64,000 nt of DNA from positions 62,001 through 126,000 of the forward strand of contig CALLPE010000029.1 in NCBI GenBank assembly GCA_938015445.1, in the 5' to 3' direction. Shown piece by piece: positions 11,519-59,567 of this stretch (positions are counted from its first letter, which is position 1; the number at the start of each line of letters is the position of its first letter). The translations under genes and the position numbers were made by a program. Below the pieces are notes generated by a model. It had not been told where the DNA came from. It searched no databases and saw nothing but the letters and a program-made list of their open reading frames with translations. Source of the stretch: an uncultured Pirellulales bacterium. Its GTDB lineage: Bacteria; Planctomycetota; Planctomycetia; Pirellulales; Thermoguttaceae.

Positions 11519-11640
11519 ACAGCTTGCGTTCGCAGTTTTCGGCAAAGGCCAGAAACATGTTGCGAAGGTCCAGAAACGTGCCGCACAGCGGTGGAGGTAT
11601 GTCGCAAAATATTAGAGCGGTGCCGAGGAGGAGTATCAAC

Positions 11641-32823: not shown

Positions 32824-34110
32824 ATGAAAAGGTTATGGGGAGTCCCACTAGTAGCGCTGGCATTGCTGGCGATTGGCGCCAGCTCTGCTGACGCGTCGCT
32901 GCTCGGTGCGGCACGACACCGCTGCTCCCGCATCGCTTGCTGCGCAGCGGTACAGCCATGTGCAGCCGCGCAGACATACACTGTGATGAAGACGGTCCGC
33001 GAGATCGTCTGGGAAACACAACAGTACACACGCTACAAGACCTGCTACGAGCCGGTCTACGAACAGCGTGCTGTGCAGTGCGTGAAGTACGTGCCCGAAA
33101 CCAATTACCGGCAGGTAAGCTACACAGTGCTCAAGCCAGTGTGGGAAACTCGCACCAAGGAGCTTCAGTACACGGTGCTCAAGCCAGTGTGGGAAACACG
33201 AACCAAAGAGGTTCCGTACACCGTGCTCAAGCCAGTGTCGGAAACTCACACCAAAGAGATTCAGTACACAGTGCTTAAGCCGGTGTGGGAAACACGAACC
33301 AAGCAGATCCATTACACGGTGATGAAGCCGGTGTACGAGCAACGCGAAAAGGTCTGCCGCTACACCGTCTGGAAGCCGGTGTATGAGACCCGCACCAAGG
33401 AAATCCAGTACACGGTTTATAAGCCTGTGTACGAGACCCGCGAGCGCGAAGTGCACTATACGGTCTGCAAGCCGGTGAAGGAGACCAAGACGATCAAGGT
33501 GTGCTCTGGCCGTTGGGAAACCCGCGACGCCCCACTGCCAGCCTGCGACCCGGTCAAGGCCTGCACGCCCGCTACTTGCACGCCGGCGACTGCTGCGCCG
33601 TCGACTTGCGCGCCAGCGACTTGCGCCCCGGTGCGTCAGGTTCGGGTGTGGGTGCCAGAGGTTGTCGAAAAACAGGTCGAGTACACCAAGTGGGTGACTG
33701 AAACGCACGTAAAGAAGGTGCCTTACACCGTCTGCAAGATGGTACCCGAAACACGCGTCAAGACCGTCACCTACCAGGTCTGCAAGATGGTGCCTGAAAC
33801 TCGGGTCAAGACCTGCACCTACCAAGTGTGCCGTCTGATAAAGGAGGTGCACACGAAGCAGATTCCGTATAAGGTGTGCAAACTGGTACCCGAGACGTGC
33901 GTGAAGATGGTGCCTTATACGGTGTTGAAACCTGTGTACTACACCAAGAACGTGACCCACGTCCGCTACGTGGCCAAGCAGGTTCCGTACACAGTAACTC
34001 GCTGCGTGCCCAAGGTGGTGCACAAGCAGGTTCCGGTACAGGTGTGCGCCCCGGTTCCGCCTGTGTGCACGGCCCCGAAGGCCTGCGAGCCGGCGGGTTG
34101 CAACAGCTAA
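32824..34110 (+). CDS. secreted YTV-repeat, cysteine-rich surface protein
   Basis: A 428-residue protein with a strong ribosome site (AAGGAGG, 8-base spacing) and a signal peptide ending at ASSADA. Most of it consists of 16-residue repeats of the form YTVLKPVWETRTKEIQ. Eight lie in the first block (33121-33504) and five in the second (33723-33962), separated by a Cys/Thr/Pro/Ala-rich linker with repeated CTPAT/CAPAT. The YTV domain is a planctomycete family known from very large proteins of the cell wall. Cysteines are frequent throughout, which suits disulfide cross-linking in a proteinaceous wall. This member is small. The antisense strand is also open because of the repeat. Confidence 0.9.
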   Translation: MKRLWGVPLVALALLAIGASSADASLLGAARHRCSRIACCAAVQPCAAAQTYTVMKTVREIVWETQQYTRYKTCYEPVYEQRAVQCVKYVPETNYRQVSYTVLKPVWETRTKELQYTVLKPVWETRTKEVPYTVLKPVSETHTKEIQYTVLKPVWETRTKQIHYTVMKPVYEQREKVCRYTVWKPVYETRTKEIQYTVYKPVYETREREVHYTVCKPVKETKTIKVCSGRWETRDAPLPACDPVKACTPATCTPATAAPSTCAPATCAPVRQVRVWVPEVVEKQVEYTKWVTETHVKKVPYTVCKMVPETRVKTVTYQVCKMVPETRVKTCTYQVCRLIKEVHTKQIPYKVCKLVPETCVKMVPYTVLKPVYYTKNVTHVRYVAKQVPYTVTRCVPKVVHKQVPVQVCAPVPPVCTAPKACEPAGCNS

Positions 34111-34135
34111 ACTTCGGCGTCGGCCAGGAGTGCCT

Positions 34136-34160
34136 CCCTTCTGACCAATAATCAGAAGGG
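34136..34160 (+). terminator. hairpin after the YTV gene
   Basis: A perfect 9-base-pair stem, CCCTTCTGA/TCAGAAGGG, has a 7-base loop, with CCAGG (34124-34128) and CCTGG (34161-34165) able to add an outer stem. A second strong stem at 34171-34215 follows. No T-tract is present, so it may protect the 3' end of the transcript as well as terminate it. Confidence 0.5.
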
Positions 34161-34219
34161 CCTGGTTCAGCCAACGGCGGCGGCCCAGCCAAACAATCAG
34201 GTTGGGCCGCCGTTGTCGT

Positions 34220-34281
34220 TTCTTGGCGGCACTGGAGCCAAGCGCAACTATTCTTGGCGGCACTGGAGCCAAGCGCAACTA
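34220..34281. repeat. perfect 31-base direct repeat, two copies
   Basis: Two identical adjoining copies of a unit beginning TTCTTGGCGGCACTGG and ending AAGCGCAACTA. The unit contains the near-palindrome TTGGCGGCACTGGAGCCAA. Confidence 0.9.
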
Positions 34282-40155: not shown

Positions 40156-40761
40156 TCACCCGTTTTGGGATTTATTTTCCGGTGCGTGTTCGATCACAGA
40201 ATCGATCAATCCGTACTCCAACGCTTCCTCTGCCGACATGAAACGATCGCGGTCCGTATCGCGTTCGATCACCTCCAAGGGTCGGCCGGTGTGCTTCAGC
40301 AGGATGCGATTCATCCGTTCCTTGATTTTGATGAACTCTCGGGCGTGGATAAGGATGTCTTCGGCGCTGCCTTCCACGCCGGCCATCGGTTGGTGGATCA
40401 TGATGCGCGAGTTGGGCAGTGCGCGACGTTTTCCCGCACTGCCTGCCGCTAGCAATATGGCGGCCATCGACGCGGCCTGGCCTACGCAGTACGTTGCCAC
40501 GTCGCAATTTATGAATTGCATTGTGTCGTAAATGGCCAGTCCGGCGGTAATGCTGCCGCCGGGCGAGTTTATGTACAGATGCACGTCCGCCTTCGAGTCT
40601 TCCGATTGGAGGAACAGCAACTGAGCGATGACGCAATTAGCGACTTCGTCGGTAATTTGCGAGCCGAGAAAGACGATACGGTCTTTCAGCAGGCGGGAAT
40701 AGATATCCATCGCCCGCTCTTCCCGACCGCTTTTTTCGATTACAAACGGAATCAGGGGCAT
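40156..40761 (-). CDS. clpP: ATP-dependent Clp protease proteolytic subunit (second copy)
   Basis: A serine peptidase subunit of 201 residues. The catalytic Ser98 is in GQAASMAA and His123 in RIMIHQP, with the Asp in [15 protein letters not shown]-type (here [13 protein letters not shown]) and the C-terminal [10 protein letters not shown] block are standard. The start at 40761 ([10 protein letters not shown]) matches the family, and GAAGGAG precedes it. It is the last gene of tig-clpP-clpP, 16 bases after the first clpP. Two different ClpP subunits may form mixed rings. No clpX follows, unlike the common tig-clpP-clpX order. Confidence 0.95.
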
Positions 40762-40777
40762 CGCCAGTTCAGCTCCT

Positions 40778-41431
40778 TCACGGTTCCTCGTCTTCGCCGG
40801 CGGCTTTTTGCTTGGTGAGTATATCGTCCACCAGCCCATAGGCCTTGGCTTCCTCGGCGGTCATATAGAAATCGCGGTCGGTGTCTTTGGCTATCTGCTC
40901 GATGGGTTTGCCGGTGTGTTCGGCTAGAATGCGATTGAGGACTTCGCGCGTTCGCAGGATTTCGCGGGCTTGGATTTCGATGTCCGACACCTGACCGCCA
41001 ACCGCACCATACGGCTGGTGGATCATCACCTTCGCATGAGGCAGCGCGAACCGCTTGCCCTTGGCCCCACCCGCCAACAGCACCGCGCCACCGCTGGCCG
41101 CCAAACCGACGCAATAGGTGGCCACCGGGCAACTGAGGATTTGCATGGTATCGTAAATGGCCAGGGTGGCGGAAACGCTTCCGCCAGGAGAATTTATGTA
41201 AAAGTGGATGTCTTTGCGGCGGTTTTCGCTTTGCAAGTAAAGCAGCTTCATCACCACTTCGTTGGCGTTGCCGTCGTGGATTTCGCCTTGAAGCAGGATG
41301 ATACGATTCTCCAGCAGCAGGTCGCCGAGGGTCATCTGCCGCTGGCGCTGATACTCGCGGTAAGAAAGCCTGGGATCAGGCCGGGCCGGCCCGAGTATGC
41401 TGTTCATAAGCTTCGATTCACGCTTGGACAT
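40778..41431 (-). CDS. clpP: ATP-dependent Clp protease proteolytic subunit (first copy)
   Basis: A ClpP paralog of 217 residues (an alternative start is at 41407). Catalytic Ser113 lies in GLAASGGA, His138 in KVMIHQP, and the Asp in AKDTDRD, so the triad is complete. The N terminus is longer than in the second copy, with [22 protein letters not shown]. The [13 protein letters not shown] block is typical. It lies six bases after the trigger factor stop, indicating an operon. The sequence around the active-site serine (ASGG in place of ASMG) differs from the usual form, which fits a specialised subunit of a two-component ClpP. Confidence 0.94.
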
Positions 41432-41437
41432 GGGGTG

Positions 41438-43000
41438 CTATATGCGCGGCAGCGGCGTTTCGGGTCTTCCTGCGGGGGCCGGTTCGCCTGGGCCGGGTTT
41501 GGCTTCGGGAATGTCCGGCTCTTCGTGGCAAACGGCCGCATCCAGCGCGGCCTCTTGAGGCTGCGGAAACTCGAAAGGAACCGGCTCGAACTGCGCGTGT
41601 TCCAGTATCTTGTCTACCACCTTCCGCTCGATTATCTGGTTGCGGAGCACATCCATCGATTCGGACTTCTCCAGCCGGGCACGGACTCGCCGCGGAGGTT
41701 CTCCCAGACGAGCGGCAATACGGCGGATTTCCTCCTCGTAGTCATCCGGGTCGGCTTCGATCTTCTCTTCCTCAGCGATCCGCTCCAGAATGAAGTGCTC
41801 TTTTAGCGCCCTAGCCGTGCTCCATTCGATATTCCGCCGTAAAAAGTTCACCCGCGCCTTTATCTCCTCGTCGGAAAAACCGGCCGATTGCATGTCCAGC
41901 ACCGCTCGCTCCAATTCCCGACGGCTTTGCCGTGCCAGCAGTCGCGGGGGCAGTTCCCAATCGGCCGACGCCGTCAGCAGCTCGGTGATCTGCTCGCGGG
42001 CTGCCTTGCGCTGTTCATACCGCACGCGCTCTTCCAAGCTCTCCTTGACCGCGTCGCGGAGGTCGGCTTCCAGCTCGAAACCGCCCAACTCCGAAAGCAG
42101 CTCCGGCGTAATCTCAGGAAGTTCCAGCTTCTTGACTTCCAAGACCTCTATCTCCACGTCGACCATTTGGCCGCGCAGCGACTCGTCTCCCGCTGAGCTG
42201 GCAATGGTGGCCTTGGCGCTGCGGGTCTCTCCGGCCCGCACTCCCAGCAATAGCGACTTCAGACCGACAATCTCCGCATCGTGAAAAGTAAGCCGGTCCC
42301 GAATCGGAAACGACTGATCCCGAAGCACGCGGATCGTCCGCTCGCCGTGTTTGAACGTCAAATTGGCAGTAACATAGTCCCCTTCTTGGGCCGGGCTGTC
42401 CACGGGAGCGAGAGTCCCTCGCTCGGCCAGCAGACGCTTCAACGCCTGTTCCACATCCTCTCGAAGGACCTCGCGCTCGGGCCGGCGGATTTTCAAACCT
42501 TTCCAGTTGGGCAATTCGAACTCGGGACGTACCTCGACGTCGAACTCGAAGACGAACGGGCCTTCGTTGGGCAATTCCAGGGCATCAACCTCCAGCTCCG
42601 GCTCGCCTATGGCCACCAGACGTTTCTCGCCTATGATTTGCTGCAAGGCGTCGGCCACCAGCGCGTATTTTACCTGAGTCGACACCTGCTTGCGGAACCG
42701 GTGCTCGATGAGCTTTCGTGGTGCTCGACCTGGGCGAAACCCCGGCACCTGCGCAGTACGGACCAGCTCGGAGTACTCCCTATCCAAGTAGCGGTCGATG
42801 TCTTCGCGGGGAATGGTCACCGTAACGTGGCGCTCGCATGCGCCGCGGGCTTCGGCCCTAAGGTCCAATTGCAGCTTTTGCACCTCCTGCTCTTGCTCGG
42901 TTTGCTCTTCCTGCAACTGGTCCAAGTCGGCCGAATCGACGAGTTGTTCGGGCGAGTCTTCCATCAAGTCGTCCGGGTTGGAATTGTCTCTATCCGTCAT
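41438..43000 (-). CDS. tig: trigger factor
   Basis: The ribosome-associated chaperone that meets nascent chains at the exit tunnel. The protein is about 520 residues, longer than the usual 430 because of an acidic N-terminal extension (about 50 residues, QEEQTEQEQEVQKL) and a Pro-rich C-terminal tail. The ribosome-binding signature is PGFRPGRAPRKLIE, close to the classic GFRxGK motif. The PPIase-type middle domain and a long helical C-terminal domain follow. The start at 43000 (MTDRDNSNPDD) lies 38 bases after tRNA-Gly on the same strand. It heads the tig-clpP-clpP operon, joining folding with degradation. Confidence 0.93.
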   Translation of the reverse strand: MTDRDNSNPDDLMEDSPEQLVDSADLDQLQEEQTEQEQEVQKLQLDLRAEARGACERHVTVTIPREDIDRYLDREYSELVRTAQVPGFRPGRAPRKLIEHRFRKQVSTQVKYALVADALQQIIGEKRLVAIGEPELEVDALELPNEGPFVFEFDVEVRPEFELPNWKGLKIRRPEREVLREDVEQALKRLLAERGTLAPVDSPAQEGDYVTANLTFKHGERTIRVLRDQSFPIRDRLTFHDAEIVGLKSLLLGVRAGETRSAKATIASSAGDESLRGQMVDVEIEVLEVKKLELPEITPELLSELGGFELEADLRDAVKESLEERVRYEQRKAAREQITELLTASADWELPPRLLARQSRRELERAVLDMQSAGFSDEEIKARVNFLRRNIEWSTARALKEHFILERIAEEEKIEADPDDYEEEIRRIAARLGEPPRRVRARLEKSESMDVLRNQIIERKVVDKILEHAQFEPVPFEFPQPQEAALDAAVCHEEPDIPEAKPGPGEPAPAGRPETPLPRI

Positions 43001-43037
43001 TGTGTTCGCCGCCCTGGGTGATCCCAAAAACAACCAG

Positions 43038-43110
43038 AGCGGGTGATGGGACTCGAACCCACGACAACCACGTTGGCAACGTGGTGCTCTACCAACTGAG
43101 CTACACCCGC
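43038..43110 (-). tRNA. tRNA-Gly (anticodon GCC)
   Basis: A full cloverleaf on the minus strand: acceptor GCGGGTG/CACCCGC, D arm with AGCTCAGTTGGTAGAGC, anticodon stem CCACG/CGTGG with loop TTGCCAA, and T arm GTGGG-TTCGAGT-CCCAT. Anticodon GCC reads GGC and GGT. The discriminator is T and CCA is not encoded. The tig start is only 38 bases downstream on the same strand. Confidence 0.96.
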
Positions 43111-43831
43111 CTGAGTAAACACAGTGCCGTTGGCGTCGAGCGTCGGCACGCGGTCGGCCGACCTTCGCACGCTGCGGTTATAAGTTAGGCAATTATAGGT
43201 TTCAGTTTACCCCTTTCAAGACCACTTGGCTTTAGCTACCTGCCACGCCTAGCTTTTTAATTCTTCCCAGTTTGTGCAAACAGCCTTTAACCGCCGGTGC
43301 CAAAAACCCTCTACGCCCGCTGCATACCGGGAAAGGTCGAGCCGCAGTCAAATAGCACCAGCAGCAGTGCCCCGGATTACCTCTATGATCCAACCTATTA
43401 GCTTATCCAATTATCCGCGGCGCGCGAAGATACCCCACACCGCGATAATACTCCGGGAGGGAGTCCGCCGGGCTTTGTGCTGGACTAGTGTCGGGGTGCC
43501 GGCCACCGACCGTGCTCAAGCTCGGGCGCAGCCGGCCGCTTAGAGCCGCGTTTAATCCGCTGCGTATAGCAGGCAGCATTTTAGCAGCTCAGTATAGCAG
43601 CGTTCCGACAATTAGAGTTTTACAAAACATGGCGCGTGTGCCAAGCGCTGGCGGCTGGAGAAAGTGGCATTTCAAGCAATAAAAGGCCGCTGCCCAACGC
43701 CCCGGCCGCTTCGGGCCACTGACAGGCACGACCGGCAGCCGCTGCTACCCTCTCCGCCTTCTTATACCGCGCCCTTATAGCGCGACCCTCTTGTTGTCCT
43801 CCGTCGCCGGCCTTATCTCGGGCGGTCATGG
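43111..43831. other. long intergenic region, nothing recognised
   Basis: About 720 bases upstream of tRNA-Gly and downstream of the TPR gene, both on the minus strand. The tRNA-tig promoter must lie near 43120-43200, but no clear consensus is visible. The rest holds no recognised gene or RNA. Confidence 0.4.
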
Positions 43832-43978
43832 GTTTTTGTCCGGCAGCGTGGAACCCGTGTTCGGCAGGGTAGGCGTTCTGTCCGGCAGTAGAGGCTTTTT
43901 GTCCGGTGTCAGGGAGTTTTGTTCGGCGGCGCGGGCTTTTTGTCCGGTTGTGCGGGCTTCTTATCCGACGGCGTTTGT
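43832..43978. repeat. 21-base tandem array, seven copies, crossing a stop codon
   Basis: The plus-strand unit core is TTTTTGTCCGGCAG with a variable second half. Copies start at 43832, 43853, 43874, 43895, 43916, 43937 and 43958. On the minus strand it encodes heptapeptides of the type AQPDKKP. The last three copies in plus coordinates are coding in the TPR gene, the stop lies in the fourth, and the first three follow the stop. Confidence 0.92.
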
Positions 43979-45447
43979 TGAGCCGGCCGGATGACCATCG
44001 GATCGCTGCTGCGGTACTTCAACATCAGATTGATCAGTTTGATCCGCTCGGGATGCTCAGGCTCGATGTCCAGCACCATTCGCCAGTGTGCTATAGCTTC
44101 GGCATACTTCTGCGCTTCTTCGTAGGCGTAACCGAGTTTTAGGTGCAAAGAGGCGGTTTGCGGGCTTTCGGCTACCGCTTTGACCAAGTACTCGATGTAT
44201 TTCTCTAGATTGCCGGCCTGATTGTACTGGTCGGCCACGGCCTGATAGGCCTCAACGCGGATGGCCTTGTACGCCTCCGGGTTGAGCTTGATGGCCTGCT
44301 CCAGCAGCTCGAGATACCGATCGTACTGCCCGCTGCCAAACGCCGCCTGTGCGAAGTAGTAGTAGAACAGGGCCTTGTCCTGCTCTACTTTCGGCTCGAT
44401 CTGCGCGAACATATCGTAGGCCTGGGCATAACGATGGGCGTTCAAGTAGATAGTCGCCAGCAGCACGCGGATGTCGGGCCGGTCTTCGATCCCATCGGCC
44501 AACGCCTTGGCCACTTGATACACGGCTGAAGTCTCCGGGGCGCAGCGGAAAGCGTCTTTCTGTCCCGGTGCTGGCTCGATCAGGTACCACAGGCCGTCGA
44601 GCATCCCTGGCTTGCCCGAAGGCACAATGCGCACCGCAATCTGCCCGAAGTAGTTTCGCAGATTGAAGTACGCCGAGCCTAACTTGTAGCGGAGCACAGG
44701 GCTGTCTAGGCCCAGCCGCAAGGCCGTCTGATAAGACTCGGCAGCGAGGGCGAAGAAGTTTTCGGCCAAATAGATATTGCCAAGCTGGTAATGGTCTGAA
44801 GCGCTTTGGCTATTCAGTTTGATGGCTTCTTCGTAATACTTGCGCGCCTTCTCGGTTTGGCCCAGATTGTTATGGGCCTCGGCCAGCATGTGATAACTGG
44901 GATAATCGTGGCGGTACTTCAGCAGCGGTTCCAGGATGCGGACCACGTCGTTCCAGCGCTTGGCATTCGAGTATAACTCTGCCAGAGTCTGGCCGGCCTC
45001 CACGTGATCGGGGGCCGTTTTGAGGATTTCCTCCAAATGCACAGCCGCCTGATCGTCTCTGCCGGCGTAGCGATACGCCCGGGCAAGCGCCAGCCGATAG
45101 CTGCTCTTGGTCTTGTCCAGCGCCGCGGCCTTGGAAAGCAGGTCGATCGCTTCCTGGTGTTTGCCCTGAAATAGAGCCTCGCGGCCTTTGGTGTAAAGCT
45201 GCTCGGCTTCGTTTTGCGGACTGGCGGCCTGTGTGGGGTTTGATTTGGGCTTTTCGGCCTCTGCCGCTGTGGCCCCACCGCCGGCCGAGCTTTCGGCCGG
45301 GCCTGCGGGTGCTGGCGCTGCGGATGGTGCTGCTTTTTCCGAAGGTTGACCGCCTTCCGGCGCTGCCTCGACCGAAATGGCCACCGCAGCACCGACGCCA
45401 AGTATCAACACCGCCAGCCAGTAATGCAGGTTTCTGTGCAGCCGCAT
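43909..45447 (-). CDS. secreted TPR-repeat protein (512 residues)
   Basis: A signal peptide (WLAVLILGVGAAVAISVEA) is followed by an Ala/Pro/Glu-rich linker to about residue 80, then TPR motifs to about residue 475. Clear units are EAEQLYTKGREALFQGKHQEA (in parts), KARKYYEEAIKLNSQSA, EYLVKAVAESPQTASLHLKLG and EAIAHWRMVLDIEPEHPE. The middle part (NYFGQIAVRIVPSGKPGML) interrupts the repeats. The tail is a heptapeptide array, SDKKPAQPDKKPAPPNKTP. The stop codon appears to result from a one-base shift in that array. It lies 122 bases after a giant TPR gene on the same strand, so both may form one operon. TPR domains bind proteins; the partners are unknown. Confidence 0.85.
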   Translation of the reverse strand: MRLHRNLHYWLAVLILGVGAAVAISVEAAPEGGQPSEKAAPSAAPAPAGPAESSAGGGATAAEAEKPKSNPTQAASPQNEAEQLYTKGREALFQGKHQEAIDLLSKAAALDKTKSSYRLALARAYRYAGRDDQAAVHLEEILKTAPDHVEAGQTLAELYSNAKRWNDVVRILEPLLKYRHDYPSYHMLAEAHNNLGQTEKARKYYEEAIKLNSQSASDHYQLGNIYLAENFFALAAESYQTALRLGLDSPVLRYKLGSAYFNLRNYFGQIAVRIVPSGKPGMLDGLWYLIEPAPGQKDAFRCAPETSAVYQVAKALADGIEDRPDIRVLLATIYLNAHRYAQAYDMFAQIEPKVEQDKALFYYYFAQAAFGSGQYDRYLELLEQAIKLNPEAYKAIRVEAYQAVADQYNQAGNLEKYIEYLVKAVAESPQTASLHLKLGYAYEEAQKYAEAIAHWRMVLDIEPEHPERIKLINLMLKYRSSDPMVIRPAQQTPSDKKPAQPDKKPAPPNKTP

Positions 45448-45569
45448 GACTTATCCTCCACGGTTGATTGTCTACGTATTCACAAGTGCAGGCCCCTGCC
45501 GCAGTCGGAACCTCGCAAAGCGAAAGATGTGCCGGGCGGCAAACCTGCTCGCCTCAGAAACATCGAACC

Positions 45570-48500
45570 TCACAATCGGTAAGTCTTGATCCAGTTGATC
45601 TGTGCTTTTGCTTTGGCCACCAGGGGGCCGTCGGGGAAGTTGTTGATGTAGTTGTTGTAGGAATCCATGGCCGCCACCCATTGTCCCAGCCGCTCGTAGC
45701 ATTCGGCAATGGCGAACTGCGCTGCGCCGGCGTTGGGGCTACGGCGGTAGTTGCGCAGGAAAGAGGTATAGGCTTCGATCGCCTCGGCATACTTGCCTTC
45801 GCGTTCGTAGTATTGGGCGATTTTCCACGAAGCATCCTCGGCCACAGCGGTACCGCTGAACTGGCGGACGATCTCCAGCCACGTTTGCAAGGCCGCCTTG
45901 GGGTCTTTCAGCCGCTGGTCGTAGATGTTGGCCATCTGGAGCAAAGCCACATCGGCCTTGTTGGAGCCGACAATCTTCGCCGTGGCCTGATAGGCCTCCA
46001 CCGCCTTGCGCAGCGCGGCGTTGATCTTGTCTTGCCGGTCGGCCATCTGCGCAGCGCTGAGGGCTTCGACATCCTGTTCGGCTTTCTGAGCGAAGAGCAT
46101 CACGTTGGCGTCGAAGAACTGTGCGCGGCCGAAAGCCTCGGCCGCCTCTTGCACTTCGGCTTCTTTGCCTTTCCCAGCCGCTTTCAAGCCGGCGATGCGT
46201 TCGCGCTGCGACGCCTCGATACTCCGTCGCTCCATTTGCAACGCCTGGTAAGCACCGCGTTGGGCTACCTCCTTGGCCTCTTCGCGCGTCTTTTCGCGCG
46301 TGGCCACCGCCAGCCGGTCCGCCTCGTCCTCGTAGCTCCTGCCGACCAGGAACATGGCGTCGCCGGCCAGCGGACTGGTGGGGTACTTGGCGGCCACTTC
46401 ACGGAGAGCCTCGCGGGCCTTGTCGGTCTCGCCCAAGGCCAGATACGCCGTGCCTATCTCGTACAGCGCAGGAGCGGCCACGTAGCTTTCCGGCCAGTTG
46501 GAGACCACCTTGCGGAACTCGATGATCGCCTTGACAGGATTCGACAACTGGCTGCGCACGATAGCGCCAATCTGATACTGGGCGTCGAACGCCTTGCGCT
46601 GGCCTTTCTCGTCGACCAACGCCTGATAGCGCGCCAGGTCTTTGAGGATTTCGATGCGCCGGTTGGCTTCGGCCACGCGGCCGTCTTGCGGATAAGCCGC
46701 CACAAAGTCGCGGTAGGCGGCGGCCGCCTCGTCCCAGCGGCTCAGGTTGATGGTGCACTCGGCTATCGCCCATTTGGCCTCTTGCACCCACTGGCCCGTG
46801 GGATACTCGTTTATCACCCGCTGGTACGCGACAATGGCGTCGGTCCACGCCTCGTTGGCCTGGTGGATTTGTCCGATCATCGTCAGCGACTGACCGGCCT
46901 GCGGATGCCGCGGAAAGCCGTTGACGAACAACTCCAGCACGTACAGAGCTTCCACCCAACGCTTCTGCTGCTTTAGCTCGGTGCCGATTTGCAGAACGGC
47001 GGCCTGGGCGGCCTCGTCGCTTCCGCCTCGGTCGAAGTTTACCTCCAGGTAAGCCTCGGCGGCCTTCAGCGGCCTTTTCAGTCTGGTGTGGTAGGTCTGC
47101 GCGGTCGTCAGCGCCGCCTGCTGGGCCAGCGGATGCAACGGATCGTGATTGCGCAACTGGTTCCAAACGGCGATGGCCTCGTCGAAGAATCCGCGCCGCT
47201 CGATCTCCTCGGCTATCTCCCACAACATTTGTGGAATAGAGCCAAGCTTGGGATGATCCGGATACCGCAACGAAACCCCGTGCAGCTCGCGCGCTGCACG
47301 CACGTACTGCCCACGAGCGAGCGTGGGACTAACGGCCGCGATCGTCCGCGCCTCGGAAAGAAAGCTGGTGGCGTTGTCCCATTGGGCCTCCTGCTGGCAG
47401 CTCTTTTCCCTGGGGAAATCGGAGACAATCTTGACCAGTTCTTCCCGTGCAGCGGCAAAGCGCCGCGCCACTTCGGCCAGCAATACTTGCCGCGGCACGT
47501 GACGCTCCAACGGACGTGCAGCCCAGGCCAGTCGATCCCGCGCGATCTCCAGCCGCAACTGAGGAAGCTGCGAATCAGCCGGATTGTCCGACAGGAACTT
47601 GGCGGCCAGCGCTGCTGCCCGCTCCCATTGCGTCAAACCGCGCCAGTGATTGACCATCACCAGTATTTCGGCGCGAGCTTGCTCGGCGGTGGCGGTCGTC
47701 GGGTATTTCTGGCGGACCGCCTGGAAAATGTCGTACGCGGCGGCAATGGCCTTCTCTTGCCGGGCCAGCTCCTCTTCGGAAACCACCATTGCCGGCAGGG
47801 CTTGCTGCGCTTGCTCCCCTTCTGCTTGTTGGGCCACAGGCTGGTTGTAGGCAACCTGTTCGCGCAGTTGCGCCACCAGGGTAGCGCGTTGCGACTCCTG
47901 GCGGCGGATCAGCGCCAGCAGCTCGGCGTCGCGCTTCGACTCGGCAGTTTCTGCACCCAGGCGAGATTCATGCGTGCTCATAGGTTTAGACGCAGGCGCT
48001 GGGGCACGAGGCGAAGGCTTCACGGGCGAGGGCTGTTCGGCCGGGCGGGATTGCGGCTTGTCGGCCCGCGCGTCAGCAACTCGGTTCGACAGGCTTCCGT
48101 CTGGACGCGCGCCGGCGGCACCCGAGCCGGGCAACGTTAAGGCGTCACCATGCATACTTAGCTTGTCGCCAAGCTCATCTTTTTCCATCCGATCCCAATC
48201 GTCCCAGCCTCCGGTCTCTGAACCCAAGAACATTCCCGCCAGCAGCGTCTCGCCGGACGGCTCGCCCTGCCCGTGCAACCCGGCGGCAGTAAGCGCAGTA
48301 AGTACTTCCCGTGCATGGTCTGGGATGGCTTGACCCATCTGGCACACGCCCCGGGCGAACTCCAACCGTTCCGGGCGCCGCACGGGTAGTTTCGATTGGA
48401 GCAGCTCGGCGTAGATCCCTTCGGCCACGCCCCAGGCATCCGCCCGCGCGTACTCCAACGCCACGCCCAATATGCTGTTGATTGCACCGGCCGCCAGCGA

Positions 48501-51125
48501 ACTGCCGGGATGCGACTCCGCAAAACTCTTGTAAGCAGCGATGGCCGCAGCGAACTCATCGCTCAGTTTGGCCGGCGGCGGCTCGCCGGGTTTGCGGTCG
48601 GCCAGCGCGCGGGACAGCAGCTTCCGCGCGTGCCGGTCCAAGGCTGCGGCGCGGCCGAAGGTCGCCCGCTCGACCGCCGACGTGCTGCCCGGCGGCGCTT
48701 GCGCCAACGTCGGCACCCCAGCCGCAAACTTGGCAAACTCGCCATAAATCTCGGCCGCAACGGAGAAGGCCCCCTGCTGCTCGAACAGCCGGGCGATGCC
48801 GAAGACACGTTCGGCGGCCTGCGCCGCCAGCGGGCTTTCCGGCAGCTCGGCAATCAGTTTCGTCCATCCGGCCAGCACCGCCTTGAACTCCGGCGTGAGC
48901 GGCACCTCCTGCGCAGGCCGGTACTGTTTGAGCACCCGGGAAAGCTCGCGGCCAGCGCGCAACTGCTGGAAGTCCACCATCGCGAAAGCCGCATACTGGT
49001 CGGCCAGCGGCACCGCCTTCTCGGCTTTAACGCGCAGCGCCGCTTCCGCCACGTCGTCATACTCCAGCGCACGGTAGTGGTCGGCTATTGCCGAAACTAT
49101 CCGCCTGATGTACGCCAACCGCGGCGAACCGTGCTCCACACCGGCGTGAAGTTCGTACAGACGCACCAGGGCCTTTTGCAACCGGCTGTCCAATTGGCGC
49201 GGGACGCTCAGCCCTGCGGCCACCAGCCGTTGATGTTCCCGGGCGACCTGTGCCAGTTGCAGCTCGATCAGGGTCAACTCGGCGGAAACCGGCCTGTCGA
49301 ATGGCAAATTGCCGGCCAAGGCGGTGTACATCGCCTCGACCACCGCCATTTGGTCGTGCTCCAGCCACGGTTTGACATGCTGCTGCAACGCTTTGGCAGC
49401 CGTGGCGGAGTATTGAACGTCGTAGGCTATCATTTTGGCCCAGGTGCCGAGCAGCTCTTTCTGCAACTCGGAAAGCTTGGCGTTTTCCTGCGGTGTGCCT
49501 TTCTTGATGTTCTCGGCGAACTGATGTCGTGCTGCGGCATCCAACAAGCTCGCATGGCGCTCGGCGTCCAGAGGCCAGTTGGGGCTATCCGGCGGCACGG
49601 CTCCCAGCAGCCGGCGACTCTGCTCCAAAACCAGCCGATACACGGCCGCAGCGTCTCTACCGCCGGATGTGCCCGCAGCGGCCCAATCGGAGAGAATCTT
49701 GCCAGCGATTTCCAACGCTTGACGGGCGGCCGGCTCCAACCCGGCGCGGACGACCGGCAGGGCGATTTCCAGCGCCCAGCCCTCCGGGCCGCGAAGCGTC
49801 GCCAGCGGCTCGGCCCAGGGCATTCCGGCGGCTGCCTGTTGTGCCTGTGCGGCCAGCGCGGCTTGTTCGGCCCACATCGGCTCGGTCGGGTATTCCGTGC
49901 GGATCGTCTGCAACACAGCCACCGCTTCTGCCAGCGCACTGGGCAGCGCCGCGTCTTTGACCGTTACAGGCAGTTTTCCCACCCGAGCTTGATCGGCCAA
50001 CCACTTTTCGCCTGCGCGACGTTTACAATCGGCCAGGGCTTTCAGCGCCAGCAGTCGTGCCGGTCGCGGCAACGGTGCGGCAAGCAGCGCTTCAATGCCT
50101 TTGGCAGCCGCCGGATAAACTGCGTTGTCGAGGTACTGGGTTGCAAGGTGCTTGGTCAGTTGCTCGACCATTGTACGGACTTCTTCCTCGCGCAGGCCAA
50201 TCTTGATCGCCTCGACCGCCGTTGATAGCGCAATCTGGTCGGCTGGCGACAACGCCGCGCCGGCGGCCGGCTTGCCCGATTGACGGCTCAACAGAATCGC
50301 CGCCGCAATCAACTGCCTGCGGGCCTGCTGGGCAAGTCGGTGCGTGCCGTTGGCGGCCACCCATTTGGCCGCTGCTTCCACGCGTGTTGCAGTAGCACAG
50401 TCGGACAGCTCGCGGTTCAGCACGTACCACTGTGCGGCGACCGCTTGGGGGGTGTTGGGATGGTCAGCCGCCAGCTTTCGCAGAATGGCAAGCCCTTCAG
50501 GCACAGCGTCGCCACCGCTGCGGAGCTTGATCTGGCCCAGCAGGAGCGCAGTCTGCAACGGGTCGGCGTCTTTGGCATGCAGTGTGAGCACCTGTTGAAC
50601 GAGTTTGTGGGCCTCGGCCAGTTCGTCCAGCGTCACAAGTGCTTCGGCCTGGATGGTAAGCACCTTTGCGCGCTGCGCCGAACTGAGCGACTTGTCGGCC
50701 AGCAGCAGCTTGCACTCGGCGTCGGCCTGGGACGCCAAGCCCTCGGTCGCCAGCAACTCGGCCAGTTTGATGCGCGCGTCCACATCGAAGCGCCGCGACT
50801 GAATCGCTTCCAGCATTTTGGCAGCGAATGGTTCTTCTGGGGCCAGACTTAGCGTTTGCTTCCAGGCGGCAATGGCCTCGTCCAACTCGCCGAGCTGATA
50901 ATGCGCTTTGCCCAGGAGCAAGAAGACCTCCGGGTTCTTCGGGTCGGTGGCTGCCGCTTGCTCGCACAGTTGGCGAGCCTTGGCGAAATCGCCGGCCGCG
51001 TAGGCGGTCTTGGCCTGCTGGTAGACGGCCTGGGCATCGGCCTGAGCCAGAGCGTCGCCTGCCAGCCACGAGGTCACTACAAGCAAAAAAACCGCACAAC
51101 CCAGCCAGGATGTGCCTGTGCGCAT
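45570..51125 (-). CDS. giant secreted TPR-repeat protein (about 1851 residues)
   Basis: The start at 51125 is preferred because AAGGAG lies seven bases upstream. An in-frame ATG at 51152 lacks such a site. The signal peptide ends ALAQ near residue 27. TPR motifs occupy residues about 30-220 (YQQAKTAYAAGDFAKARQLC, AIAAWKQTLSLAPEEP), then helical repeats of weaker pattern to about 1000, an Ala/Pro/Ser-rich linker with a coiled-coil start near 1050-1130, and a second clear TPR set to the end (AIVAYQRVINEYPTGQWVQEA, AIEAYTSFLRNYRRSPNAG). The C-terminal set resembles the YbgF/BamD kind of periplasmic TPR. It may be a scaffold for envelope complexes. A long antisense frame is open only because of GC-rich codon use. 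Confidence 0.85.
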   Translation of the reverse strand: MRTGTSWLGCAVFLLVVTSWLAGDALAQADAQAVYQQAKTAYAAGDFAKARQLCEQAAATDPKNPEVFLLLGKAHYQLGELDEAIAAWKQTLSLAPEEPFAAKMLEAIQSRRFDVDARIKLAELLATEGLASQADAECKLLLADKSLSSAQRAKVLTIQAEALVTLDELAEAHKLVQQVLTLHAKDADPLQTALLLGQIKLRSGGDAVPEGLAILRKLAADHPNTPQAVAAQWYVLNRELSDCATATRVEAAAKWVAANGTHRLAQQARRQLIAAAILLSRQSGKPAAGAALSPADQIALSTAVEAIKIGLREEEVRTMVEQLTKHLATQYLDNAVYPAAAKGIEALLAAPLPRPARLLALKALADCKRRAGEKWLADQARVGKLPVTVKDAALPSALAEAVAVLQTIRTEYPTEPMWAEQAALAAQAQQAAAGMPWAEPLATLRGPEGWALEIALPVVRAGLEPAARQALEIAGKILSDWAAAGTSGGRDAAAVYRLVLEQSRRLLGAVPPDSPNWPLDAERHASLLDAAARHQFAENIKKGTPQENAKLSELQKELLGTWAKMIAYDVQYSATAAKALQQHVKPWLEHDQMAVVEAMYTALAGNLPFDRPVSAELTLIELQLAQVAREHQRLVAAGLSVPRQLDSRLQKALVRLYELHAGVEHGSPRLAYIRRIVSAIADHYRALEYDDVAEAALRVKAEKAVPLADQYAAFAMVDFQQLRAGRELSRVLKQYRPAQEVPLTPEFKAVLAGWTKLIAELPESPLAAQAAERVFGIARLFEQQGAFSVAAEIYGEFAKFAAGVPTLAQAPPGSTSAVERATFGRAAALDRHARKLLSRALADRKPGEPPPAKLSDEFAAAIAAYKSFAESHPGSSLAAGAINSILGVALEYARADAWGVAEGIYAELLQSKLPVRRPERLEFARGVCQMGQAIPDHAREVLTALTAAGLHGQGEPSGETLLAGMFLGSETGGWDDWDRMEKDELGDKLSMHGDALTLPGSGAAGARPDGSLSNRVADARADKPQSRPAEQPSPVKPSPRAPAPASKPMSTHESRLGAETAESKRDAELLALIRRQESQRATLVAQLREQVAYNQPVAQQAEGEQAQQALPAMVVSEEELARQEKAIAAAYDIFQAVRQKYPTTATAEQARAEILVMVNHWRGLTQWERAAALAAKFLSDNPADSQLPQLRLEIARDRLAWAARPLERHVPRQVLLAEVARRFAAAREELVKIVSDFPREKSCQQEAQWDNATSFLSEARTIAAVSPTLARGQYVRAARELHGVSLRYPDHPKLGSIPQMLWEIAEEIERRGFFDEAIAVWNQLRNHDPLHPLAQQAALTTAQTYHTRLKRPLKAAEAYLEVNFDRGGSDEAAQAAVLQIGTELKQQKRWVEALYVLELFVNGFPRHPQAGQSLTMIGQIHQANEAWTDAIVAYQRVINEYPTGQWVQEAKWAIAECTINLSRWDEAAAAYRDFVAAYPQDGRVAEANRRIEILKDLARYQALVDEKGQRKAFDAQYQIGAIVRSQLSNPVKAIIEFRKVVSNWPESYVAAPALYEIGTAYLALGETDKAREALREVAAKYPTSPLAGDAMFLVGRSYEDEADRLAVATREKTREEAKEVAQRGAYQALQMERRSIEASQRERIAGLKAAGKGKEAEVQEAAEAFGRAQFFDANVMLFAQKAEQDVEALSAAQMADRQDKINAALRKAVEAYQATAKIVGSNKADVALLQMANIYDQRLKDPKAALQTWLEIVRQFSGTAVAEDASWKIAQYYEREGKYAEAIEAYTSFLRNYRRSPNAGAAQFAIAECYERLGQWVAAMDSYNNYINNFPDGPLVAKAKAQINWIKTYRL

Positions 51126-51821
51126 AGGAAAACTCCTTGCTTTGGTAGTCATCGATGTGCAAGGTCAGAGGCCTGGGCGGTGGGCCAGCCCCGGCGCTCG
51201 ACACACCGTTACGGTACTTGGCTGGCTTTACTGAGTAGCCGGCCCGGCAAGAGCTATCTACCACCCGCGCAGGCGCACCGCGGCGAAATAGGCCATTTGC
51301 GCGGGCAAGCGGTGGCGAAAGCACGCATTACTAAGCAACTGCCAGCACTAACCGATCAAAGGTTCCTCAAGGCCAACTAGTCGATTGTACTTTATTGCGC
51401 CGGTGCTAGGTTTGCTCGCCATGAGAAAGTTCTAGCCTGCGCTACGGTTGCCATCCCCGGCAGCGATCGGCCCAATAACGACCAGTTGTTTGCCGGTATA
51501 ATCCGGCCGGTTCTCCGTTGGGCTACACCGGTTAGACTACTGGCACCTGCGAAAAGTTCCCCACGGATTGCAAGTTTCTTACAAATCGCGCTTTTCGGGC
51601 CGCAATTGGCGTAGGTTTTGCCGTTTTTGTCTTGGCTGGTCTGGCCAGCCACTTTTCCCGCGCTGCCGACTGAGGCACAATGGGCTACCAACTGAGGCAG
51701 AATTGGTTTTCCACGCCGGGCGTGGCCGTAGAGTAGTACAGAGCTACTATGCTGCTGCGCCGGCCGGGAGCGGACAGGACGTTTTGGCAAGCGTATCTGA
51801 CCATCACATTCGAGGAAAGAA
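51126..51821. other. long intergenic region between divergent genes
   Basis: About 700 bases between the giant TPR gene and the ZIP transporter. It must carry both promoters, but none is clear. A diverged 22-base pair built on ACTGAGGCA lies at 51668-51711. No other element was seen. Confidence 0.4.
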
Positions 51822-52754: not shown

Positions 52755-54980
52755 TCAGCCCGATGTCGAGCTTGTGAGCAACTTGTTTCTCGCCAAATGC
52801 CCGCGGAAATAGTACACCACGGCGATTCCCACTACGATCAGCAGCGAACCGGCGTATTTCAGCCCGCGACCGGGATCGTACGATACGGCCAGCCACGAAA
52901 GCCAGAACCTCTCGCGCTGTCCGAATCGTCCGACCAATTCTTCGTATTCGCGCCAGCCGGGACGAACCGGCCCCCAACGGCCTTCCTGAAAGAAACGGTA
53001 GCATCGCCCGGTGACCGGATCGGTCACGTCTACGGGGGCGTTCATCGAGATGCAAGCGTTTTCGACGATCGGTTCCAGAGGCCGCGCCGCTTCGGCCTCT
53101 GATGGTTGCGGCTCGGGCGGGCCAGCTCGGGCGGCGCTGCGCCCCGATTCCGGCAGGCGCAGGAAATCCACGTAGCTTTCAAAACTTTCGGCCTTGCGGC
53201 TGCCGGGTTCCAGCCGCTGCCGAAATTGTCGGAGGTGAACTGCGAAGCCGAGTTTCACCGTTTGCGGTTTCAACGCTACTGTTACCTCGCGCGTGCCGCT
53301 TCGCACGGTATGCCGGTCGTCCGGCAGAGGGATGAGGAACTGCTCCGCCGCCAACCAAAACTCCTCGCTGGTCTCATCGACGGTAAGCCTTACCAGCACG
53401 CGGCGCTGGGGAACCTCGCGGCGGAACTTCGACTTGACGAACGGCACCGGACGGACGATCCACCCCGGCGCTTCCGACAGCAAAAACTCCTCTAGTTCCA
53501 CCACAATTTGCGAAAAGGCCAGTATCTTGCTGCCCGGCGACACCGCCATGGGGCTGTGTAACGGGTCGGAGGTTTCTTGGCCCGGCCAGGCGGCGGCGAT
53601 TTCCACCTTGGGTGGAAGCCACGTGCGGTAATACAGCCGGCGGTCGTGCCCCTGAATGATGTCGATGCGCCACCAGCGGGGATCATCTTCTGCCGGAGCA
53701 TCGCGGCCTTCCAGGGCCGCGTGCGCCGCTGCCACATCGACCCAATAAGCCCCGTACAGTCCGCGACGAAGATCGTGCTTGTTCAGCTCTGGCGTATTGG
53801 GGTAGAGGATTATCGCCTCAGGCTTTTCTTGGCCGCGGTGGACTGCAAAACGGATCGCCTGACTTTCGGTATCGAAGGCCATCAGTTCCACTTCCAGTCC
53901 TGTATCGGCCAGCGACTGCCGCGATTTGCGTTGGAACTGCTCCAGCGGAAAGCGGAACACCTGGCCAGCGAAGTAGAAAACCACCTGGCCGAACGGTCCC
54001 AATTGACCATCGGGCAGAGCTTTGAGGAAGGCTTCGGTTTCATCAGCGCTGCCAGACATCCAGAACGAGACGCGCGGGCCAAGTTGCGTCTGCGCGGACT
54101 GACCCACGCCGGTCGGCCGGATGGCGGCGTGCGGACCGCCGCCACGCACCGACAGCGTAAGAGTTTCTGACCAGGGTTCGTGCCTGGCTCGCTGGTCATC
54201 TGCCAGCACGGTCAACCGCACCGTAACGCCGGGCACGCTTTGCCGCCGCGAGTGGCTACAGTAGTCGAGCACCTCCAGCCGAATGCCGTCGCGCTGATAC
54301 AGCACGCCGCTGGAGCGGTACGCCAAACGCCACGGGAACCAGGCCAGCCGCTGGTAGTCTTCCCAATTGAATGGCCCGCCCACAAATGGCACGCGGATCG
54401 GCTCGGCAAACTGGGCTGGCCAATCGGTTTGGTCATCGAGCGCGCCGGTGCCGTGCGGCACAGCGGATGTTCTCTTTTGCGCTTCATCACTGCGCGGCAT
54501 AACGGCCAGCTCGAAGTAGTCACGGTGAAGCACTTCGATCGTATCGGCGGTTTGGCCTTCGAAGATGCCCAACCGAGCCGAAATCCCCCAGCGCTGTGAA
54601 GTCCAGAATCCCGCCAGCAACACCAGTATTCCCGTGTGAGTTAGTAGGAAGCCGATATGCCGCCTGCGCCAGGGAAAGCGAACCACCATGGCTGCGGCGA
54701 CGTTTATTGCCAGCAGCGCACCCAGCGCGCGGAACCAACCCGTGCTGTAAATGCCGAATTGGCTGACCGCTTCGTCGTACTTGCTTTCCAGGAAGGTGGC
54801 CCAGGCCAGCACCACGGCCAGCAAGAAGATCAGCGGTACGGCCAGATAAAGCGAGGCGAGCGAACGCAGAATCAGTGCGGCGGCCTGCCACAGCCCGCCG
54901 GCAGATGGCCGCTGCCCCACCTCGATTGCTTCGCGGCTGTTGGCGTTGTCGTTCGCATTACGGTGCTGGTCATGCGTCAT
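52755..54980 (-). CDS. resB: ResB/Ccs1-type cytochrome c biogenesis protein
   Basis: System II cytochrome c maturation, in which ResB works with ResC/CcsA to pass heme to apocytochrome c outside the membrane. The protein is about 741 residues. Transmembrane segments lie near residues 40-60 (ASLYLAVPLIFLLAVVLAW), 85-105 (GALLAINVAAAMVV) and 115-135 (HIGFLLTHTGILVLLAGFW), with a fourth near the C terminus. A large periplasmic domain lies between the third and fourth. The C-terminal stretch VSYDPGRGLKYAGSLLIVVG is the usual ResB ending. Start 54980 (MTHDQHRNAN) is chosen over a longer frame. No CcsA gene is adjacent, and in some planctomycetes the two are fused. Confidence 0.87.
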   Translation of the reverse strand: MTHDQHRNANDNANSREAIEVGQRPSAGGLWQAAALILRSLASLYLAVPLIFLLAVVLAWATFLESKYDEAVSQFGIYSTGWFRALGALLAINVAAAMVVRFPWRRRHIGFLLTHTGILVLLAGFWTSQRWGISARLGIFEGQTADTIEVLHRDYFELAVMPRSDEAQKRTSAVPHGTGALDDQTDWPAQFAEPIRVPFVGGPFNWEDYQRLAWFPWRLAYRSSGVLYQRDGIRLEVLDYCSHSRRQSVPGVTVRLTVLADDQRARHEPWSETLTLSVRGGGPHAAIRPTGVGQSAQTQLGPRVSFWMSGSADETEAFLKALPDGQLGPFGQVVFYFAGQVFRFPLEQFQRKSRQSLADTGLEVELMAFDTESQAIRFAVHRGQEKPEAIILYPNTPELNKHDLRRGLYGAYWVDVAAAHAALEGRDAPAEDDPRWWRIDIIQGHDRRLYYRTWLPPKVEIAAAWPGQETSDPLHSPMAVSPGSKILAFSQIVVELEEFLLSEAPGWIVRPVPFVKSKFRREVPQRRVLVRLTVDETSEEFWLAAEQFLIPLPDDRHTVRSGTREVTVALKPQTVKLGFAVHLRQFRQRLEPGSRKAESFESYVDFLRLPESGRSAARAGPPEPQPSEAEAARPLEPIVENACISMNAPVDVTDPVTGRCYRFFQEGRWGPVRPGWREYEELVGRFGQRERFWLSWLAVSYDPGRGLKYAGSLLIVVGIAVVYYFRGHLARNKLLTSSTSG

Positions 54981-55087
54981 GCTGACAGCCGTTTGGGTTA
55001 GTAGGTGGCTAGGCGCCTGATAAACCCCGAGGGCAGCAGTTGCTTGTCGCATGCAGCCATCGGCGACAAAAACTCATTGTGCGCTGT

Positions 55088-55173: not shown

Positions 55174-58100
55174 TTAGCGGGGTGCCGTCTCGGCCAGCAA
55201 CTGCTCCACGGCTGCGTGCACCGGTTGCGACTGGAGCACGATCAGGCAGGCCGATGTCGGGTCGAAGTACAGCGCGCCGGGACCGCCCGCCTCCTGCCAG
55301 CTTGCCGGCGCCACGCTGGTACGTATCTTCTCGCAGAGTTCGGCTGGGCTTGTGCCTGCGTCGAGCAATTGGCCGATGGGATAGAACTCCAGTTCCAGGC
55401 GTGCGGCCAGCGCTTGGCGCGACGTGATTTCGATAGTTCGTTTATCGACTATCCGCCAGGCAAGCCCCAACGGCCCAAGCAGCTCGCGCAAAGCCGCTGC
55501 GAGCGGTTGTTTGTGTACCGTGAGGCTGACTTTGGTAGCAGCCGTTTTTCCCGCGCTGGCCAGGGCGGCGTGATCGATCAGTATTTGGCACTCGGCGGCC
55601 TGTGCCAGGTACGCCGCCACTGCGCCCAGCGCCGTCGGCTGGCGGAAGTTGGCCGTCAATTCCCGCTGCAACATCGGACTGGCTGCGGCTCGGCGGCTTT
55701 GCAGACTGAGAAGCTCGCGCTGCAAACCGCTGCGTGGCGACAACCTGCGTGCTGTGCGCAGTTTGTCCAAGAAGATAACAATCCGCTGATGTACGCTTTC
55801 GGTCTGGATGATCGACAGGCCGCGCTCCGCCGCCTGCAATTTGCCGCGGCCGCCGGCGATGTGCCAGGAGTCAGCAGCAACCAGCTTCTGCACCAGCAGG
55901 CCCAACATTTCGGTTTCCGCTTTATCGCGGGCCAGATCGTCCAGCGGGTAGTCGCGCGCAATCAGGCGCTGACGATGTTCTTCCGGGCTAGTCAGCAACA
56001 CCTGCGTCTTTTCGACTACGCAAATCAGCCCGCGGTCGTCGGCAATTTCCTCCAGCGCTTTGCCGAAGGTGGCGCCTGCGAGGTCGATGCTTACCGGATC
56101 GTCCAGCGCCACATCCAGTTCTGCCAGGGCGTCTGTGTCGAGGGTGATCGGCAAATTGCTCAACTGGGCAAGCACTTCCACTGCCCGAAGCAACGGAACA
56201 CGATCCAGTCGCAGCGCCGGCAGGCGCTCGGCCAGTCGGGCGGGGATGTCGGGCAGATCGATCGGTGGAGCCGGTTCCGGTTGCAGCGGCTCGACGGTCG
56301 GTTCCCCCTTGTCCCCCTCTGGATGCGGCGACGGTTTTTCTGTCGGCCCCGCAGGCTTGGCCCCCAGCGCTGGCTTCGCGGCAGGCTGCGGACCGATCTG
56401 CGGAAGCGCGTCGGCTTTGGCCGCGGCGTCGCCTCCCAGGGTAGCCAACCGCTCGAGCAACTCCGGATCAGTGTGCTTAGAAACAAATCGGACCGAGCCG
56501 TCGGCCATACCGACCAGCATCCCGTCGGGCTGACCGCTGCCGAATCCATCCGGCCCGTTGACGTACGGGCGTTTGGTCAGGGGCCGGGCGGTGGCCTCTC
56601 CGCCGGAAGCCCACGGTCCCAAGCGGTCCACCACCCCCATCACGGCGATGGTGTTCGAGGCCCCCCGCGGCAAGTCTTCCAACCGAGTGGTTCGGCCGTA
56701 GCCGAACATGCCAGCGCGCGGATCGCTGGCCGGCAGCCGTCCGGCATCCACCCCGACGCCCGCCACGCCCACATAGTGCGTGGCGGGAAAGCCTGCGGGG
56801 CAGGTGCGCTGCTCGATGGCAGGGTTGATTACCTCCGGCAGCACGCGGCGCGCAACACGCTCATTCTGGCCGCTGTTCCACGGATAGCCGAACTGCAACT
56901 GCCGATGCCAATCGGCGTGATCGAAATACGGAAGCAATTGGGCCAGCCAGCTCAGCCGCGTTTCTGGCGGCAACAGCGCCCCGCCTTCAGCGGCGGGAGG
57001 AAATTGTTTGTACGCCTTGCCGTAGCCGGCCAGGGCCTCCAGCAAGCGCACATGGTTGGCCGCGTCGGCGCGCAGGGCTGCGGCATACCACTCGGCCACG
57101 ATGGCTGCGCGGCTATCCAGCGCGGCGGCGGCCAGCACCGCGGGGGCTTCGCTCCAATTGGTTCTCAACCAGGCGACGTGCTCGGCAAGCTCGATCTGCG
57201 AGCCATCCAGCGCAGCCAGCGATTGCCTGAGCAACTCCTCGTATCGCTGTGCCGCTTCGATCGGCAACTGGCCCGCCTTGAGTTTCTCGCCCACCGAGTC
57301 GGCAAGCCCTTTCAGCCCGGTACGGGCGGCCGACAGCAGCTCCTCCAGCGCGCTGCGGCAGCGATCGGCAGCCGTCTCGCCCGAGCACACCAACGCCAGT
57401 TGCGTGTGAAGCACTTCGCGCCACACAGCCATGCAGCCCAGTGCGTCGGGCAGTTCCCACAGCGTGCTCCAAGCGGCTTTCCCTTGCGGCCATACGTCCA
57501 TTAGACGCTGGGGCAGCGGCCAGGCGGCCTCCCGCGCGGCCTGCAAATCGACCAGAAACACAAGGTCGAAATCGCCGGCCCCGGCGGCCGAGACCAGCCG
57601 CTCGATGGCGATGCTGCGAAGCCGCACCTGGCTGCGAGTGTGAAGATGACGCAAGATGTCTTCGTGCCCGGTCACAACAACCGACTTCCCCACCACTGCC
57701 AGCGGATGCATCCAATCGCCGCGATTCGCCCGACGGCACTGCTGGCCGAACACCACCAGTCCAGCAGGTTCGCCGAAGTTGGACAGCCGCGATGCATCGT
57801 AGTCGGGCTGAAGCTCTATTACCACCACACAGCGGTGCGGCAAACCGGCCAAATCGTCGCTAGCCAGGGTGATGCGCCGGATTGCCGATGCATCAAGGCC
57901 CAGCGACTGGATGGCTGCGCCGCAGGTCTGCCGCCAGACTTCCAGCGGCTTACCGGAACCGCCAAGCGCATGCGGCAAACCGGTGATCCGCAAAGCATTG
58001 TAACTGAGCAGCAAAACCGTCCCGTCGGGCAACCAGCGGCGATCCAACCTTTCGCCGGGAGTAGGGGCGGGTGGCGGTACCTCCGCCGGCTGCGGCGCTT

Positions 58101-59115: not shown

Positions 59116-59567
59116 TACAACGTCCCGCCGGTCGATCTTCTCGCGCCCGCCGTGGCCGATGGTAAAATTACACCGGTAATTCCAGTTATTCCGCCAGAAG
59201 GTTCTCGCCGTCTAGCTTACCAATTCTACGGCGCAACTGATAGTTTGTCATTGAGTTTGATGCCGATGCCGCGTATGGCCGCTGCCTTGCTGCGTTGCGA
59301 ATCGCCGGCAGTAACAAGGCCGTAAACATATTCTGCTTTCTGCTTGACAATCGCCGTCAGGCTGTCAAACTGTCATTGGCTTGTGCCGTACGGAAATTGG
59401 GCTGCGCCATGCGGTAAACGCAACAGCGCCTGACGTGTACCGGCATCCGTGGCTGGCGGATGCATCGCTGTAAGTTGACACGAAATATGGGGGACCGCTT
59501 ATTCGAGCGAAGTGCGATACGATGTGCTATGGCGGTGCAAGTTGATAGGAAATACGGAGGGCCGCTT
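59116..59567. other. intergenic region with duplicated translation start region
   Basis: About 450 bases between divergent genes. No gene is seen. The last 100 bases hold an imperfect 33-base duplication that includes the ribosome site of the sulfatase gene. Confidence 0.45.

Follow-up and report, generated by a model that had tools for sequence, protein, structure and literature searches.

A degenerate array of 21-base units spans the 3' end of a gene for a 512-residue TPR protein in a 64,000-nucleotide stretch of DNA from an uncultured Pirellulales bacterium, the whole of which is called the window here. The array is very probably a worn, lineage-specific minisatellite in a disordered tail under low constraint, in which the reading frame has been brought to an end by a single natural indel of one base or by a change nearby that created a TGA; as such, it would be neutral and ordinary. 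Degenerate coding minisatellites are a general kind of sequence that yields low-complexity, disordered tails. The array and the tail are a feature of this ordinary kind. They share with it a unit length that is a multiple of three, a Pro/Lys-rich product and lineage-specificity, and the sole feature that sets them apart is one 20-base copy. The features concerned are listed in Table 1.

Table 1. Features of the TPR gene pair and of the repeat array, in window coordinates
Feature	Coordinates	Strand	Remarks
Degenerate 21-base array	43829-43974	minus	Seven recognisable copies; copy borders placed by eye
Array copies 1-3	43974-43954, 43953-43933, 43932-43912	minus	Third is the last complete copy before the stop
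Array copy 4	43911-43892	minus	20 bases, one base short
Array copies 5-7	43891-43871, 43870-43850, 43849-43829	minus
TGA closing the heptad frame after the array	43826-43828	minus
Gene for the 512-residue TPR protein	43909-45447	minus	N-terminal hydrophobic helix; second of the two genes in the cassette; from ORF, TPR families, orthologues and predicted fold
TGA stop of the 512-residue TPR gene	43909-43911	minus
Codons of the folded TPR core (residues 77-480)	44008-45219	minus	Helices; 10-residue block pLDDT mostly >90; orthologue alignments
Codons of the predicted disordered Pro/Lys-rich tail (residues 481-512)	43912-44007	minus	Block pLDDT 44-52; variable in orthologues
A4 run	43917-43920	minus	Named in the initial annotation; too short for a slippage switch; not the best gap site
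Gene for the 1860-residue TPR protein	45570-51152	minus	Upstream syntenic partner; from ORF and upstream match in orthologous loci

The repeat array and its short copy

The periodicity of the array on the minus strand is far above chance. Self-identity at a lag of 21 bases reaches 54%, whereas the best lag in shuffled sequences averages 37% and never exceeds 45%, and none of 2000 dinucleotide shuffles attained an identity of 0.54 at any lag from 10 to 39. A second genomic copy as the source of the array was considered and rejected, since the array region matches only itself in its own genome.

The initial annotation had placed the stop of the TPR gene inside this array, and it does lie there: the protein ends in RPAQQTPSDKKPAQPDKKPAPPNKTP, and the TGA that follows is the first codon of the 20-base copy. 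That annotation had also described the fifth copy as one base short. One copy is indeed short, but it is the fourth when seven copies are counted. Past the stop, another frame reads LTPDKKP LLPDRTP TLPNTGS TLPDKNP before its own TGA, and translation thus confirms that the heptapeptide pattern continues as had been reported. However striking it may look, the persistence of a repeat beyond a stop in a different frame is a consequence of the repeat itself. A 21-base unit is exactly seven codons long, so its repetition yields a heptapeptide whichever frame is read, and the 20-base copy only changes which heptapeptide appears. Consequently, the continuation of the heptad beyond the stop is no independent evidence, and the match on both sides, which had been deemed hard to explain by chance, amounts to one observation rather than two.

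Repeats are also found elsewhere in the window. Strong 48-base repeats lie at 33121-33831 within a 476-residue frame without a Pfam match (32851-34278, minus strand), and a 15-base array of GGACCAACCGGCGAA units lies at 58278-58382 within a 1345-residue minus-strand frame (55177-59211) with matches to DUF1559.

The TPR protein and its predicted fold

The 512-residue protein matches 22 Pfam families, mostly TPR families, with TPR_19, TPR_14 and TPR_2 among them; TPR_19 scores 89.9 bits against a cut-off of 25, and other TPR families also exceed their cut-offs. Among the best 25 of 27 NCBIfam matches, no model scores above its own cut-off. AlphaFold2 was run on the window protein with 19 orthologues in the alignment; L055, which has masked residues, was omitted from the structure alignment only. 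The predicted structure of the window protein (mean pLDDT 85.2) consists of helical pairs at residues 77-262 and 308-480 and a small beta insertion with strands at about 271-304. Its best fold matches in the PDB are TPR superhelices, for example 6eou and 1w3b. With motifs above the curated cut-offs and an alpha-solenoid fold, the product is a TPR-repeat protein. It is like other TPR solenoid proteins, such as the TPR domain of O-GlcNAc transferase, in its TPR families and superhelix fold, whereas it differs from TPR proteins of the O-GlcNAc transferase type in adding the small beta insertion and lacking a catalytic domain.

The last predicted helix spans residues 468-480, and the final residue blocks have pLDDT values of 52, 44, 48 and 44. 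Since the helices end at residue 480 and pLDDT is low beyond it, the frame break lies in a tail that is predicted to be disordered and is outside the fold.

Tails and repeats among the orthologues

The window genome is the only one of its genus in the collection. A first search of 60 genomes, its own included, found clear orthologues in G006, G009, G010, G015, G022 (a fragment) and G032, with identities of 58-73%. Within the family, 7 of 119 genomes match the 512-residue protein at E <= 1e-50, that is, 6 of the 118 others. A scan of 84,980 species genomes returned 28 loci, in which the six family genomes recurred and were counted once. Four loci (L059-L062; 24-33% identity) were excluded as not orthologous; of the 24 orthologues left, 20 have a readable C-terminus, while three run off the contig (L051, L054, L057) and the alignment of one (L056) ends at residue 285. 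The named relatives with orthologues are Planctomycetota MAGs, many of them labelled Pirellulales or Phycisphaerae. An orthologue with 73% identity (L040) sits in a MAG labelled Akkermansiaceae, and two pieces (L041 and L051) sit in one labelled Candidatus Nealsonbacteria; these may reflect mislabelled or mixed bins, or transfer.

The TPR core can be aligned across the orthologues up to about K477. Past this residue, the 20 readable tails measure 35, 30, 40, 53, 24, 3, 27, 14, 25, 25, 20, 0, 13, 2, 2, 12, 3, 14, 4 and 25 residues (range 0-53, median 17); those of L048 and L049 were set by hand to 2 residues, and their stops were checked in the sequence. The window tail measures 35 residues, a length exceeded in 2 of the 20 and equalled by the closest orthologue (L035, 74% identity). 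Pro, Lys and Glu are abundant in many of the longer tails, for example those of L037 and L043, so composition appears to be loosely conserved, unlike length and sequence. The array itself is absent from the relatives. None of the 20 orthologues has the 21-base lag signal around its stop (their best lags score 0.30-0.39 and that of the window 0.52), and a search for six P/K tripeptides in any frame over the 150 bases past the stop was likewise negative in all 20.

A conserved longer tail in the relatives is rejected on these results, and truncation of a conserved end is not supported: every readable orthologue stops 0-53 residues past K477, where the TPR core ends, with no heptad array downstream. 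The initial annotation had also considered that homologues might all stop at the same codon with no heptad beyond it, which would count against its reading. Most of this is observed: the lack of a downstream heptad held in 20 of 20, but the stop codon is not shared and tail length varies. With neither the length nor the sequence of the tail conserved, loss of its end says little about function.

Tail length also bears on the main rival explanation, in which all copies are 21 bases long in the organism and the draft genome has lost one base. Several circumstances speak for such an error: the source genome is a draft of 63 contigs (4.48 Mb, 87.86% complete), low-complexity arrays are difficult to assemble and the genus is represented by one sequence only in the collection. 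However, the unbroken tail, read on in the heptad frame and counted from coordinates, would be 63 residues long, more than in any of the 20 orthologues. In addition, a Pfam frame-break scan of 43 of 57 selected window ORFs found 17 genes in which a single frame covers at least 85% of a domain profile; no family was split over neighbouring frames, and the 1860-residue partner gene is a single open frame. A few partial matches, to DUF1559 at 11395-12585 and to ResB at 52758-55073, have no complementing neighbour. The 43 ORFs scanned argue for a low indel rate in the contig, with which a single error inside the repeat is still compatible. A sequencing or assembly error is thus regarded as unlikely, although it is the foremost of the alternatives.

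Position of the missing base and phase variation

To locate the short position, a single gap was slid through the array, and the sum-of-pairs column agreement was scored at each placement. The score is highest at 43906-43908 (307), falls to 303 at 43908-43909 and to 298 when the gap is in the A run, and is 232 without a gap; the position of the missing base is ambiguous. The initial annotation had assigned it to the A run at 43917-43920, which is not the best site. Moreover, the gap falls 3' of the TGA in the best placements, and the stop may thus have arisen independently of the frame shift. Runs of four A or T number 213 in the window and runs of five number 56, which makes an A4 run unremarkable.

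A phase-variable tail, the reading originally put forward, would require slippage in this A run to toggle between the 512-residue protein and a longer one. The idea draws on a frame change in a repeat close to the 3' end of a gene whose product is probably exported, and on a precedent, the C-terminal phase variation proposed for Helicobacter canadensis genes with 3' homopolymers (PMC2823697). In both cases, a reading-frame change near the 3' end would alter only the C-terminus. In contrast, the Helicobacter canadensis tracts, as described there, are poly-G of at least 10 bases that varied in reads, whereas the run considered here is an A4 in a degenerate 21-base array. Published screens begin at 7-10 bases, with thresholds of at least 7 for homopolymers (PMC3711429) and at least 9 (PMC2823697) or at least 10 (PMC6321876) for A tracts. 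The A4 run is therefore shorter than the homopolymers of about 7-10 bases or more that are expected of SSR-mediated phase-variable genes in these sources, and neither a tract nor a frame break recurs in any of the 20 orthologues, all of which lack the array. Furthermore, gain or loss of a whole 21-base unit keeps the frame and cannot switch it. Slippage in the A4 run was rejected on run length, gap placement and the commonness of such runs, and phase variation by this route is highly improbable. It is equally hard to credit that slippage within the 21-base array gives an exported TPR scaffold tails of 35 or 63 residues; if true, this would give a non-pathogenic planctomycete a switch of C-terminal length. 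A literature search on TPR tails with repeats listed no paper on the 512-residue protein.

Reading of the sequence beyond the stop

Ribosomal recoding would be another way to reach the heptad frame, with some ribosomes continuing into it by a -1 frameshift, and this frame is open for 27 codons past the stop region. Slippery heptamers follow the motif X-XXY-YYZ. However, direct reading of the sequence found no such heptamer before the stop, the RNA fold around and after the stop is no better than in shuffles (z -0.41) and all 20 orthologues lack the array, which speaks against conserved recoding. The slippery site, the stimulatory structure and the conservation expected of a programmed ribosomal frameshift are all missing here, and the explanation, the least probable of those considered, was rejected.

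The tests for coding in the array are weak. In codon usage, the array scores +3.9 bits up to the stop and the heptad frame beyond it scores -3.2 bits, with -11.7 and +5.1 bits in the other frames; the third frame reaches +5.1 bits over only 26-27 codons, which indicates that the test is low in power. Differences between copies, counted by codon position over the common 15 bases, number 4, 2 and 6 before the stop and 9, 10 and 13 after it, both being small samples. Over all seven copies, they number 28, 25 and 44, and this lean to third positions is compatible with an earlier state in which the whole array was translated in frame. Past the stop, the pattern is nearly flat and, in a test that is weak with so small a sample, gives no sign of present constraint. 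A scan for terminators and promoters from 43050 to 45700 found no signal stronger than in shuffles with a bearing on the array.

A worn minisatellite in a tail under little constraint remains the preferred reading, and it can be outlined as follows. The 21-base minisatellite at the 3' end of the TPR gene would have given the protein its Pro/Lys-rich, probably disordered tail. One copy would then have lost a base by a natural and presumably neutral indel, or a nearby change would have created the TGA. The protein would end at residue 512 from then on, and the last four copies would be an untranslated remnant.

The two-gene TPR cassette

The gene for the 512-residue protein has a syntenic partner. 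The large TPR gene has an upstream match in each of the 22 orthologous loci with DNA on that side; the match extends to the last residue in 21 of them and is confined to an inner part in L053. Two further loci, L035 and L041, begin inside the small gene and fall outside this count. The downstream flank is not conserved and forms only two clusters of two members. When four genomes were compared, only the two TPR genes recurred, and the flanks beyond the pair were not conserved; the small gene of G032 is missing from that comparison, probably since a longer overlapping frame was picked. The cassette (43909-51152; about 1860 and 512 residues) is syntenic in Planctomycetota and other MAGs and patchy within the family, with the small gene in 7 of 119 genomes.

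Nearby in the window, two adjacent genes for ClpP-type proteases (40159-41437), each with a near full-length Clp protease match, lie directly downstream of a trigger factor gene (41438-43033).

The 512-residue protein would be the normal product of its gene, and it may act as a periplasmic or secreted TPR scaffold that partners the large upstream TPR protein. Judged from the N-terminal hydrophobic helix, the TPRs and the synteny, an exported scaffold pair is the likeliest role of the two proteins. The two-gene TPR cassette is a more useful by-product of the analysis than the array itself.
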